64,000 bases of DNA, from assembly GCA_947497475.1 (NCBI GenBank), contig CANMGS010000001.1, positions 1,509,747 through 1,573,746 on the forward strand, read 5' to 3'. The notes under the pieces were generated by a model. It saw only the letters and a list, made by a program, of their open reading frames with translations. It made no database searches and had not been told where the DNA came from. A program made the position numbers and the translations under genes. The DNA is from an uncultured Amylibacter sp. (GTDB taxonomy: Bacteria; Pseudomonadota; Alphaproteobacteria; Rhodobacterales; Rhodobacteraceae). This document shows positions 8,788 through 16,332 of this stretch, piece after piece. Within the stretch, counting starts at the first letter, position 1; each line of letters opens with the position of its first letter.

Positions 8788-9603
8788 TTATCCCTTTGCC
8801 CCATTCGTAGGCCAATCGTGCGTTTCATCTGATGCGTCACGTGCCCAACGGTAGAAGGCATCATATAGCAACATACCTGCATCCAGTTGTGCGATATCAT
8901 CTTTGTACATGCGTGACAGTCCTAAAGAGGCTGCCATTAAGCCTGCAGCTTCTGGTGCGATGTCATGGCGGTCTGTGTCTGCGCCGCGTATGATGGTTGC
9001 CAGCTTTTTTAGGGCAGGGATTTCGAGACTGAACTCTTTGACCATTTTATCAAAGGTGCAATCGTCGCCGTCATGCGTCCAATAACAGTCTTCGACATCA
9101 AATGGTGTGGCGTTGAATTTTTCTGCAACGTTTAGGACTTGGGATGGAGAGACGAAAAGGAATTTTGCTTTTGGGTCGATGAAGCGGCGGATTAACCAAG
9201 GGCAGGCGATACGGTCTATTTTTGGGCGGTGACGGGTAACCCATAGGGTGCTGCCGTCTGGTTGATATGGTATCTTATCTGTTGGGATGAGAGGTAGGCC
9301 AGCTTCGCGCCATCCTACGATACCACCTTGGACGGTTTCACATTGTATGCCGTGGTGACGTAACAATGCAGCGGCACCTTGGCTGAGCTTTAGACCTTTG
9401 TGACATACTAGGATGGTTTTTTTGCCTTCAAGTTCGGGAATAAGGTCTTCGATCTTTGTAAAACAATGACGGCGTGCAGTTGGTATCAGGCGCGGATCTT
9501 GGTTGAAGTCCTCGTCAATACATACGTCTATGATGATAGGATAATCGGGAGTACCGATAAGACGGTTTAATTGGTTCGGTGTGATTTCTGTTGGGGCGGG
9601 CAT
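8788..9603 (-). CDS. Rhodanese and ChrB C-terminal domain protein (chromate resistance)
   Basis: Two-domain cytoplasmic protein of 271 residues. Residues 1-105 form a rhodanese-like domain with the active-loop Cys in VCHKGLKLS. Residues 115-260 match the ChrB C-terminal domain, with WVTRHRPKIDRIACPWLIRRFIDPKAKFLFV and FDVEDCYWTHDGDDCTFDKMV. ChrB proteins are linked to chromate sensing and chr operon expression. Here the N-terminal ChrB part is replaced by rhodanese, an arrangement known in several proteobacteria. First gene of the operon with chrA and the SRPBCC gene, preceded by the structured leader at 9604-9690. Its Shine-Dalgarno AAGGAAGG (9611-9618) partly falls in that structure. Confidence 0.85.
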   Translation of the reverse strand: MPAPTEITPNQLNRLIGTPDYPIIIDVCIDEDFNQDPRLIPTARRHCFTKIEDLIPELEGKKTILVCHKGLKLSQGAAALLRHHGIQCETVQGGIVGWREAGLPLIPTDKIPYQPDGSTLWVTRHRPKIDRIACPWLIRRFIDPKAKFLFVSPSQVLNVAEKFNATPFDVEDCYWTHDGDDCTFDKMVKEFSLEIPALKKLATIIRGADTDRHDIAPEAAGLMAASLGLSRMYKDDIAQLDAGMLLYDAFYRWARDASDETHDWPTNGAKG

Positions 9604-9690
9604 AGCGCATCCTTCCTTTGGCTAGGGTTATGGATGCGAAACTTGGGCTGGCGCCTCACGGGGCATTCGCGGTCCCCATGTAGGCAGTTT
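9604..9690 (-). promoter_or_regulatory. Structured 5' leader of the chr operon (candidate cis-regulatory RNA)
   Basis: Read on the minus strand toward the ChrB-like gene, the leader holds an 11-bp hairpin (arms 9674-9685 and 9653-9663, with one bulged A) carrying a 10-base loop (9664-9673). Five loop bases, GCGAA (9666-9670), are complementary to TTCGC at 9636-9640, which would make a pseudoknot. A second 7-bp hairpin pairs CGCATCC (9632-9638) with GGATGCG (9606-9612), covering the last bases of the Shine-Dalgarno. The pseudoknot and the second hairpin share 9636-9638, so they exclude each other. One pair of the first stem is a U-G wobble only in minus-strand RNA. A possible -35 TTGACG lies at 9709-9714; the -10 is unclear. 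Confidence 0.6.
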
Positions 9691-13101: not shown

Positions 13102-13419
13102 ATGCCCCATATAAAAACCGATATATCTGCACAAACCGTATTAACAACTTTTGAAGTCACACCAGGGACTTGTCAGGACTTGCTTGATTTACTGACGGAT
13201 GCTTATCGCGACGTGATTAGTAAGCAGTCTGGGTTTATTGCAGCTGGGTTGCATGTGAATGACGCGCAAACGCGTATTGCTAATTATTCGCAGTGGGAAG
13301 ACCGTAACGATTTTCAAGCGATGTTGCGTACGGATGAGATGCGTAAACGGAACCGCGTGATTAACGAGATGTGTAAAAGTTTTGAGCCTGTCATGTATGA
13401 TGTGGCTGCGGTGTTTTAG
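13102..13419 (+). CDS. ABM (antibiotic biosynthesis monooxygenase-like) domain protein
   Basis: Small protein of 105 residues from the ATG at 13102, which is preceded by AAAGGAG (13088-13094). The sequence [39 protein letters not shown]...[18 protein letters not shown] fits the dimeric alpha/beta ABM ferredoxin-like fold; these proteins include quinol and haem-degrading monooxygenases and many uncharacterised members. No catalytic residues can be assigned. Its stop overlaps the convergent uvrB stop by 4 bases. Confidence 0.75.
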
Positions 13420-15602
13420 AACTTCCTTTGAGACTTGCCACGGTATGTCCGTGTCCCACCTTTACCAGCAGTGGAACGCCCTCCACGTTTAACGGCATCT
13501 TCAACTGCTGCGTCTACCGCGGATTGGCGTGCCAGAGGATCGTCGGCGATGGTCAACTCTACAGCTTCAAGTCGTTTAACCTCGTCACGTATGCGTGCAG
13601 CTTCTTCGAACTCTAAGTTCTCTGCGGCGGTCAGCATATCTTTGCGTAAACTGTCTAGATGGGCTTGCAGGTTTGCACCGACCAGTGGTTTTTTATCGAC
13701 TTTTGCTGTGATGCGGCTTTCATCGGTATCGGCCCCAAAGACGCCTTCAAGGACATCTTCCACATTCTTTTTGATCGTTGTTGGTGTGATGCCGTGCTCT
13801 TCGTTATAGGCTTGTTGTTTCGCACGGCGACGATTGGTTTCGCCAATGGCACGTTCCATGCTGCCTGTAATTTTGTCGGCATACATAATGACACGGCCAT
13901 CTGCATTACGCGCGGCGCGGCCAATGGTTTGGACGAGTGATGTTTCAGACCGTAAAAAGCCTTCTTTATCGGCATCAAGAATTGCTACGAGAGCGCATTC
14001 AGGAATATCCAAGCCTTCGCGTAGAAGGTTGATGCCGATTAGGACATCAAATGCACCAAGGCGTAAGTCACGCAGGATTTCAATCCGTTCGATTGTATCA
14101 ATATCAGAGTGCATGTAGCGCACACGAATGCCTTGTTCGTGCAGGTATTCTGTTAGGTCTTCGGACATCCGTTTGGTGAGTGTTGTGACCAACACACGGC
14201 TGCCTTGTTCTGCGACGATGCGGATCTCAGACAGTAGATCATCGACCTGTGTGTTCACTGGGCGGATTTCAACTGGTGGGTCCAACAATCCTGTTGGGCG
14301 GATCACCTGTTCTGCGAACACACCTTGTGCTTGTGCCAGTTCCCATTTTTGAGGGGTTGCTGACACAAAAATAGATTGGGGGCGCATGGCGTCCCATTCT
14401 TCGAACTTAAGTGGGCGGTTGTCTGTACATGACGGCAGGCGGAAACCGTGTTCGGATAGGGTGTTTTTGCGATTAAAGTCACCTTTATACATGCCACCGA
14501 TTTGGGGAACGGATACATGAGATTCGTCTGCAAATACGATCGCATCATCTGGGATGTATTCGAATAAGGTTGGTGGAGCTTCGCCAGGGGCGCGACCAGT
14601 CAGGTAGCGCGAGTAGTTTTCGATACCTGCGCATACGCCTGTTGCTTCTAACATTTCCAGATCGAATTTCGTGCGTTGCTCCAGACGCTGGTATTCTAAA
14701 AGTTTGCCGTCCTTTTCAAACTGTTTTAGGCGGATGTCTAATTCGGCTTTGATGCCTTTTATGGCCTGTTGCATTGTCGGGCGCGGTGTCACGTAGTGGG
14801 AGTTTGCGTAAATGCGCACCTTTTCCAATGTACCTGTTTTTTCACCTGTTAAGGTGTCAAATTCGGTGATGTTTTCCAATTCTTCACCAAAGAAAGAAAA
14901 TCGCCAGCCGCGATCTTCCAAGTGGGCTGGCCATACTTCTAGGGTGTCGCCGCGGACGCGAAAAGACCCACGTTGGAACGCTTGGTCGTTACGGCGGTAT
15001 TGTTGAGCCACGAGATCGGCCATGATTTTACGTTGGTCATATTCATTGCCAGCAATCAGGTCTTGGGTCATTGCAGTATACGTTTCAACAGAACCAATAC
15101 CATAGATACAAGATACGGAAGCGACGATAATAACATCATCGCGTTCTAATAATGCCCGTGTTGCTGAGTGGCGCATACGGTCGATTTGTTCGTTAATTTG
15201 GCTTTCTTTTTCTATGTATGTGTCTGAGCGGGCAACATAGGCCTCTGGCTGGTAATAATCATAGTAGCTGACGAAATACTCGACGGCGTTGTCAGGAAAA
15301 AATCCTTTAAACTCTGCATAAAGCTGGGCCGCAAGTGTTTTGTTTGGGGCAAGGATGATAGCGGGGCGTTGAGTGTGTTCTATCACTTTGGCCATGGTGA
15401 ATGTTTTACCTGTACCCGTGGCGCCTAAAAGGACTTGATTTTGTTCGCCTTCGTTTATGGCTTGTACCAGCTCTGCAATCGCTGTTGGTTGGTCGCCTGC
15501 AGGTTCAAACTCTGTATTCATCACAATCTTACGGCCGCCTTCCAATTTAAGCTTGGCATGGCGATCTGGAGTATTCAAAAGTGGTGGTGACGATAGGGTC
15601 AT
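13416..15602 (-). CDS. uvrB: Excinuclease ABC subunit B
   Basis: DNA damage recognition helicase of nucleotide excision repair, loaded by UvrA and recruiting UvrC. Walker A GATGTGKT lies at about 60-67, the beta-hairpin [11 protein letters not shown] follows, then the DESHV Walker B box, the helicase motifs [15 protein letters not shown] and IGRAARN, and a C-terminal UVR domain ([28 protein letters not shown]). The Arg/Gly/Lys-rich tail [18 protein letters not shown] is typical of alphaproteobacteria. The 728-residue length is normal. The N-terminal 25 residues before the conserved region are slightly long, so a start further in is possible. Confidence 0.97.
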
Positions 15603-15674
15603 TCTACGGAGTTTTCCTTTTAAATAAACATGCAGCAGTTAGCAAAAAGTTCAAGACTGTTTGGCAAATTTAAT

Positions 15675-15693
15675 ATACAACTTTAAGTTGTAT
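15675..15693. repeat. 9-bp inverted repeat in the uvrB upstream region
   Basis: ATACAACTT and AAGTTGTAT flank a single T. The dyad lies about 75 bases upstream of the uvrB start and about 85 bases before the candidate RNA at 15761. It does not resemble the alphaproteobacterial LexA direct repeat GTTC-N7-GTTC. Together with the RNA it accounts for most of the 335-base gap 15603-15937; I see no small gene there. Confidence 0.5.
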
Positions 15694-15760
15694 TAATGTT
15701 TGTAGTGCGCAACCTATGCGAATATTTTTGTTGCAATTTACTTCGACTCACTGTTTATTC

Positions 15761-15893
15761 GAGGTGCAAGCAGCAAGACCGGTTGTCAGCTGAATATGTA
15801 CACACCCACCCCACCCCTCGCTCTACATATTCGGTTGGCGACCTTTCTCCCTAAAAAAACATATTGAATGTGGACTGAGGCTTGCACCTTTTG
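15761..15893 (+). ncRNA. Candidate structured small RNA (unassigned family)
   Basis: An outer stem pairs 15761-15771 with 15880-15890 (10 Watson-Crick pairs and a G-U). It encloses a 19-bp uninterrupted hairpin (arms 15781-15799 and 15825-15843) with a 25-base C-rich loop. Five pairs of this hairpin are G-U and would be A-C mismatches on the other strand, which argues for plus-strand RNA. A TTTTGCC...TTTT stretch follows the outer stem. A promoter-like TTGCAA (15731-15736), 17 bases, TTTATT (15754-15759) precedes it. Part of the hairpin arm could instead pair with ACATATT at 15860-15866. It could also be the 5' leader of the gene at 15938. Confidence 0.55.
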
Positions 15894-15937
15894 CCTGTTT
15901 TAGCGATAAGCAAGTAAGCAATCAGTTTGAGGCAACC

Positions 15938-16249
15938 ATGCTCGCACGTATTTATCAACCTGCACGTAATGCAATGCAATCTGGACAAGCAAAAACTAAA
16001 ACTTGGGTTTTAGAGTTTGCCCCAGAAGAAGCGCGCAAAGTTGACCCTTTGATGGGGTGGACAAGTTCAAGTGATATGAATGCGCAAGTGAAATTGAGCT
16101 TTGAGAGTAAAGAAGCAGCCATTGAGTATGCGACTGGAAAAGGGATTGCTTATAGGGTGTCTGAGCCGCAAAAACGTAAGCCTAATGTACGCAACGGCGG
16201 TTATGGTGAAAACTTCGCTACAAATAGACGAAGTGTTTGGACACATTAA
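15938..16249 (+). CDS. NDUFS4-like complex I accessory subunit (ETC complex I conserved region)
   Basis: Protein of 103 residues matching the family of the mitochondrial 18-kDa NDUFS4 subunit of NADH:quinone oxidoreductase, which sits at the N-module/Q-module junction. Key segments are ARIYQPARNAMQSGQ at the start, WVLEFAPEEARKVDPLMGWTSSSDMNAQVKLSF in the middle and YGENFATNRRSVWTH at the end. These supernumerary subunits are known in alphaproteobacteria, and the gene is typically not within the nuo cluster, as here. A GAGG precedes the ATG by 6 bases. tRNA-Arg follows after 6 bases and may be on the same transcript. Confidence 0.9.
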   Translation: MLARIYQPARNAMQSGQAKTKTWVLEFAPEEARKVDPLMGWTSSSDMNAQVKLSFESKEAAIEYATGKGIAYRVSEPQKRKPNVRNGGYGENFATNRRSVWTH

Positions 16250-16255
16250 AGGTAA

Positions 16256-16332
16256 GGTCCCGTAGCTCAACTGGATAGAGCATCTGCCTTCTAAGCAGAG
16301 GGTTTCAGGTTCGAGTCCTGACGGGATCGCCA
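16256..16332 (+). tRNA. tRNA-Arg (anticodon TCT)
   Basis: Complete cloverleaf: acceptor stem GGTCCCG/CGGGATC with one G-U pair, D stem GCTC/GAGC, anticodon stem TCTGC/GCAGA with loop CTTCTAA (anticodon TCT at 16290-16292, reading AGA), T stem TCAGG/CCTGA, discriminator G and an encoded CCA (16330-16332). No copy of its 3' end was seen elsewhere in the window, so there is no sign of an integrated element here. Confidence 0.97.

Follow-up and report, generated by a model that had tools for sequence, protein, structure and literature searches.

The window analysed here, a stretch of 64,000 nucleotides from the genome of an uncultured Amylibacter sp. (Rhodobacteraceae), contains uvrB on the minus strand (positions 13416–15602, recognized by its Pfam UvrB domains) and, diverging from it on the plus strand, an NDUFS4-like gene (15938–16249, Pfam PF04800). 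The spacer between the two genes harbours, at 15766–15843 on the plus strand, the member of an RNA family that is the subject of this report. An earlier note on this DNA had proposed a structured RNA in the spacer, and our analyses confirm both its position and the existence of a fold far beyond chance expectation. Two further features border the element. Directly 3' of the NDUFS4-like gene lies a gene for tRNA-Arg with the anticodon tct (16256–16332, plus strand), and tRNA matches occur shortly 3' of NDUFS4 also in two other loci (L045 and L066). On the uvrB side, a perfect inverted repeat (ATACAACTTTAAGTTGTAT, 15675–15693) is located upstream of the promoter of the small RNA; such a repeat is not general in the family (mean length of 5.4 bp compared with 4.9 bp in shuffled sequences), with three loci (L027, L050 and L056) containing other repeats.

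The predicted RNA begins with an unpaired leader (GCAAGCAGCAAGACC, 15766–15780, plus strand as all parts named here), whose start is placed by the spacing from the promoter and whose first ten bases represent the conserved part. The leader is followed by the 5' arm of a 20-bp hairpin (15781–15800), a C-rich loop containing the conserved sequence ACCCACCCCACCCCTCGCTC (15801–15823), and the 3' arm (15824–15843); the arms are defined by the predicted fold and by covariation, and the loop is unpaired in the fold and nearly invariant in the alignments. A short pyrimidine-rich tail comes next (TTTCTCCC, 15844–15851), similar tails being present in many of the 60 relatives compared. The plus strand of 15766–15848 folds with −29.4 kcal/mol (z = −5.13), a value not attained by any of 200 shuffled sequences, whereas the minus strand of the same stretch is unremarkable (z = 0.26, with 112 of 200 shuffled sequences as good); the z-score for the whole of 15761–15893 on the plus strand is −6.09. 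Some details of the original description need adjusting: instead of a 19-bp stem with a 25-base loop, the fold shows 20 bp and a loop of 23 nt, and we count by eye four rather than five G-U pairs in the hairpin. The motif ACATATT, previously suggested as an alternative partner for one arm, is missing 3' of the hairpin in all three near relatives compared (loci L004, L005 and L006).

A DNA search of 33 genomes of the genus found similar DNA in 17 of them. In a plain MAFFT alignment of these 17 copies, 15 of the 19 stem pairs have changed on both sides and 98.1% of the cells remain paired, with none of 500 shuffled alignments as good on four measures and one as good on a fifth. A covariance model built from the 17 copies located the element in 22 of the 33 genus genomes and in 102 of 295 genomes of the family, and a second model, built from 50 matches of the genus and family searches with the first one, detected it in 114 of 290 Rhodobacteraceae genomes, that is, in 113 of 289 sampled genera, leaving 176 genomes with no match. 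Among 385 genomes sampled across the class, the only match was the Amylibacter genome itself, none of the four other family members listed in this sample being matched; the family and class searches were run with stricter filters. The genus and family searches returned a single match per genome, with one exception (G022). A pattern scan of named genomes, from which at least 119 loci were fetched and 80 listed by name, has among its listed matches representatives of Amylibacter, Aliiroseovarius, Celeribacter, Maritimibacter, Thalassobacter, Thalassovita, Frigidibacter, Amaricoccus, Pseudooceanicola, Sagittula, Roseicyclus and others.

The comparative alignment that had been recommended for this spacer indeed reveals strong covariation, since in an alignment of 50 sequences all 19 modelled stem pairs exhibit compensatory changes on both sides and 95.6% of the cells are paired, although these sequences were fitted to the model, so that the counts lean towards the structure, which is not the case for the 17-sequence MAFFT alignment. 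None of 500 shuffled versions of the 50-sequence alignment reaches this level of pairing, and sliding the partner by one to three columns reduces it to 15.6–44.1%. The parts that do not pair are conserved in sequence: a loop segment of approximately 20 nt (ACCCACCCCACCCCTCGCTCC) and the 5' end (GCAAGCAGCA) are nearly fixed across many genera, with columns 1–10 at least 90% identical in the alignment of model matches, and the length of the loop differs by a few bases among members. The paired columns of the 50-sequence alignment contain 115 G-U combinations as opposed to only six A-C or C-A. As A-C is what a wobble pair of the other strand would look like, this imbalance indicates that selection acts on the plus-strand RNA, and the original observation that the G-U pairs make sense on the plus strand only thus holds, the plus strand being also the only one that folds better than shuffled sequences. 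The element belongs to a small-RNA family of Rhodobacteraceae, in which the stem drifts and the pairing and the C-rich loop are kept; a regulatory function of the RNA is thus very probable.

To characterize the surroundings of the RNA we relied on 129 distinct loci (150 minus 21 identical stretches) chosen with a text pattern in which AAGCAGC and a part of the loop are fixed; these letters are hence conserved by construction, and the promoter region had no part in the choice. All counts out of 129 or 120 loci given below for the promoter, neighbouring genes, terminators, the NDUFS4 promoter, the closing helix and pairing with gene starts, as well as that for the tail above, are based on pattern-chosen loci. 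The profile of the 129 loci upstream of AAGCAGC displays peaks of TTGC around −37 and of TAnnnT between −14 and −9. The corresponding elements in the window are TTGCAA (15731–15736) and TTTATT (15754–15759), a degenerate version of the family consensus, separated by 17 nt and preceded at around −59 to −40 from AAGCAGC by a moderately conserved AT-rich box (CAACCTATGCGAATATTTTT, 15710–15729) that may serve as an UP element or an activator site, all on the plus strand. A generic promoter scan of the window lists no promoter there. The plausible promoter mentioned in the earlier note is thus weak in the window itself, yet its positions match the peaks of the profile. Because this conserved promoter occurs at a fixed distance, we place the start of the RNA at GCAAGC. 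Judging from sequence, the RNA would have its own promoter of the sigma-70 type and constitute a transcription unit separate from its neighbours.

The 3' end is less clearly marked. The T runs that had been noted after the hairpin find no support as a part of the RNA: no terminator-like site is found within 15603–15960, and a terminator directly follows the hairpin in only nine of the 129 relatives (compared with 1.6 in shuffled and two in antisense sequences), most clearly in two Celeribacter loci (L080 and L096).

Rfam 15 yields no match at the gathering cut-off over the element in the window or in the loci of 15 relatives, and lowering the stringency to E = 5 for 15600–15960 does not produce any match over it either. 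The only nearby candidate, an ohsC match on the minus strand (15643–15697), is below threshold (E = 3) and outside the element, and was discarded. Elsewhere in the window, Rfam identifies the cis-regulatory chrB-a RNA (RF03078, 70.5 bits, 9601–9682, minus strand). Rfam includes 6S, tmRNA, RNase P, 4.5S RNA and 6C. None of the first four matches at the element, in agreement with the lack of their hallmarks stated initially, and neither does 6C. The latter RNA, from actinobacteria, and sX13 from Xanthomonas have C-rich loops that are regarded as seeds for pairing with G-rich sites in mRNAs, and differ from the RNA described here in the number of hairpins, in sequence and in lineage. Rhodobacteraceae themselves possess small RNAs with C-rich loops, namely the CcsR or ‘cuckoo’ RNAs of Rhodobacter, which come in several tandem copies with CCUCCUCCC loops; in contrast, our RNA is typically matched once per genome and its loop differs.

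Among the papers listed in our literature searches we found no description of this RNA, with supplements and most subscription papers lying outside the search. The word ‘uvrB’ is absent from the main texts of small-RNA surveys in Ruegeria (PMC4809877) and Paracoccus (PMC5107571), nor does it occur in the main text of either of two motif surveys (PMC2864571 and PMC8632094). The latter survey describes HRC-8-4, a hairpin restricted to Rhodobacterales with conserved loop nucleotides and a terminator-like stem, along with further Rhodobacterales motifs different from the RNA studied here (PMC8632094). HRC-8-4 resembles our RNA in being a Rhodobacterales hairpin with conserved nucleotides in the loop, but it is found mainly between cco operons rather than beside uvrB. 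A motif presented solely in the supplement of the same survey could be identical to the RNA reported here (PMC8632094).

The most instructive comparison, made by features and not by alignment, is with GsrN of Caulobacter crescentus. According to its published description, GsrN exposes near its 5' end a C-rich loop that is its most conserved part in Caulobacteraceae, its predicted targets are G-rich, and pairing of the loop with the katG leader is supported by compensatory mutations, making the loop a proven seed (PMC5869019). The same source reports that GsrN needs the general stress sigma factor and that its predicted homologues are usually located near sigT/nepR/phyR, the C. crescentus gsrN itself being a stated exception (PMC5869019). 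Like in GsrN, an exposed C-rich loop is the most conserved part of our RNA; unlike GsrN, it resides between uvrB and NDUFS4, away from ecfG/sigT-nepR-phyR, has a TTGC-N17-TAnnnT promoter instead of one of the EcfG type, and possesses a longer fixed loop of a different sequence.

Since the combination of a fixed C-rich loop with a drifting stem is the GsrN pattern, we take a GsrN-like way of working as the most likely, and consider it somewhat probable from our analyses that the element is a stand-alone, trans-acting small RNA of Rhodobacteraceae whose C-rich loop is a seed for base-pairing with mRNAs. The RNA would be transcribed on the plus strand from its own sigma-70-type promoter, starting at GCAAGCAGCA, and the 20-bp stem, able to change in sequence provided that it still pairs, would hold up the fixed loop of approximately 20 nt. 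The loop, possibly aided by the fixed 5' end, would pair with short G-rich stretches of several mRNAs, and such pairing at translation starts or in leaders might alter the translation or stability of these mRNAs. Hfq probably takes part, and the conserved AGCAGCA could be a candidate Hfq site, as these sites have an A-R-N motif. The computations show that the structure is conserved, which strand is concerned, where the promoter lies, which genes are the neighbours, and that NDUFS4 has a separate promoter (discussed below); expression, action in trans by base-pairing and the involvement of Hfq are inferences.

The search for pairing partners gave neutral or negative outcomes. Allowing at most one mismatch, the complement of 14 nt of the loop occurs at 129 sites in the 33 genus genomes, 18 of which are the element itself, compared with 102 sites for a reversed control; exact complements are limited to the element in 15 genomes and one other site in G021. 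Complements of a shorter, 8-nt part of the loop are present 42 times in the genome of the window (32 in the reversed control), and 39 times in a second test (34 in the control). Thirty sites from each of these two sets were examined. Two of them carry GGGTGGGG at the position of a Shine–Dalgarno sequence, one preceding the gene for RNase R (L320) and the other that for a PhnC-like transporter (L327). RNase R was rejected as a conserved target: across the 29 loci read of 30 fetched from 31 genus genomes with a match (G011 was left out), the full GGGTGGGG precedes this gene in one of 19 genomes with the RNA, the one under study, and in one of ten without it (G010), so the site is not conserved and is kept in a genome that lacks the RNA. 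The starts of uvrB and NDUFS4 do not pair with the loop beyond the level of shuffled sequences. The complement of the 5' end, TGCTGCTTG, has 45 sites in the genome of the window (G000) as opposed to 11 for the reversed control, and 27 of the 30 sites examined fall within open reading frames of at least 90 amino acids on either strand; codon content is the likely cause of this excess, without explaining it fully. The earlier description of the loop as exposed and C-rich is upheld, the suggested pairing with Shine–Dalgarno regions being unproven, with sites slightly above control, and no target was found, nor any clearly enriched or conserved GsrN-like partner, among the G-rich sites examined. 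This result, the presence of a terminator in only nine of 129 loci, the 176 of 290 genomes without a match and the loss of the RNA in a close relative (see below) all count against the seed-loop explanation, and so does the fact that a wholly fixed loop of 20 nt exceeds what a short seed would need.

One alternative is that the RNA is a protein-binding platform, its loop and 5' end sequestering or guiding an RNA-binding protein with no pairing to mRNAs. The nearly fixed loop and ten-nucleotide 5' end in many genera are what such a platform would be expected to have, and no complementary partner stands out in our searches; we nevertheless regard it as unlikely, as a candidate protein is lacking, the loop is devoid of GGA, the motif of CsrA-type sponges, and the slight variation in loop length is something that a strict protein site might not permit. 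A more general version, in which the fixed C-rich loop together with the 5' end binds a single partner, be it a protein or a structured RNA, instead of many mRNAs, appears rather doubtful to us. If true, it would mean a new kind of RNA platform that has been kept at one chromosomal site through much of the history of the family.

The genomic setting bears on yet another alternative, i.e. that the element is a cis-acting leader of NDUFS4, with transcription reading through from the upstream promoter and the hairpin controlling the gene. In 120 of the 129 loci NDUFS4 follows downstream at a short distance on the same strand (it is further away in three and not found in six), the median distance from AAGCAGC being 188 nt; a terminator after the hairpin is missing in 120 of 129; and there is a weak signal of pairing between the leader and NDUFS4, with a mean of −8.7 kcal/mol compared with −7.3 kcal/mol after simple shuffling, and 89 of 120 loci below the shuffled mean. 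The divergent uvrB is near in 104 of the 129 loci, further away in nine and not found in 16, several of which are close to the end of the fetched stretch, and all 52 loci fetched from the first-model searches contain uvrB and/or NDUFS4; these neighbour counts cover fetched loci and not all genomes matched by the second model. However, NDUFS4 appears to have a promoter of its own, located outside the RNA (TTGCAC-N17-GATAAG at 15882–15910, plus strand, in the window): in the interval from the hairpin to NDUFS4, a loose pattern finds a promoter-like site in 85 of 120 loci (1.45 expected from shuffling, zero for the reverse strand), and the strict pattern CTTG[C/A] does so in 66 of 120 (0.05 from shuffling). 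The RNA does not hold a constant position directly upstream of NDUFS4 either. In six genus genomes (L020, L021, L025, L028, L030 and L034) it stays beside uvrB and NDUFS4 is found approximately 1.5–2.5 kb further on the same strand, two of these loci that were read having in between a long frame that would encode a membrane protein, which looks by eye like a channel of the MscS type. Furthermore, a terminator stands right after the hairpin in the nine loci mentioned above. A cis-acting role thus seems to us an improbable one.

The NDUFS4 promoter overlaps a feature formerly assigned to the RNA. The closing stem around the hairpin does form in the predicted fold, with 11 bp, but relatives provide no support for it: of 120 loci, 19 can form a closing helix that reaches 8 bp, compared with 10.3 expected from shuffled spacers, and the 3' arm coincides with the −35 box of the separate NDUFS4 promoter. 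The closing stem was therefore not retained as a part of the RNA.

Eleven genomes of the genus lack the RNA, and we inspected seven of the corresponding loci, the other four genomes (G007, G011, G015 and G018) having no NDUFS4 match. The uvrB–NDUFS4 spacer is 144–193 nt long in six of the seven and 564 nt in one, and none of them contains the element even with filters off (best score 9.8 bits). One of these genomes, G010 (L003/L252), is the nearest fetched relative of the genome under study in terms of UvrB identity (97.7–97.8%); its hairpin and the −10 element of the small RNA are gone and the NDUFS4 promoter is kept. The loss in G010 and the absence from the genus loci examined imply that the RNA is dispensable. 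Two observations support the stand-alone RNA: NDUFS4 has a separate promoter in genomes devoid of the RNA as well, and the RNA remains by uvrB when NDUFS4 is 1.5–2.5 kb apart.

A DNA element instead of an RNA, be it a cruciform, a protein site or a minus-strand G-quadruplex upstream of uvrB, for which the G-rich minus strand of the loop and the divergent position of uvrB might speak, is very improbable given that G-U pairs keep the plus strand paired (115 versus 6), that folding of the minus strand does not surpass that of shuffled sequences, that the strand opposite some loops has no fourth run of G, and that a promoter occurs at a fixed distance.

The occurrence of the family in 113 of 289 sampled genera and its strong covariation, combined with no match in Rfam, make it very likely that a real regulator is encoded between uvrB and NDUFS4, one that would escape automatic Rfam-based annotation in a bacterial family of ecological importance. 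The RNA offers a defined gene for deletion in culturable strains, and close relatives with and without it are available for comparison.
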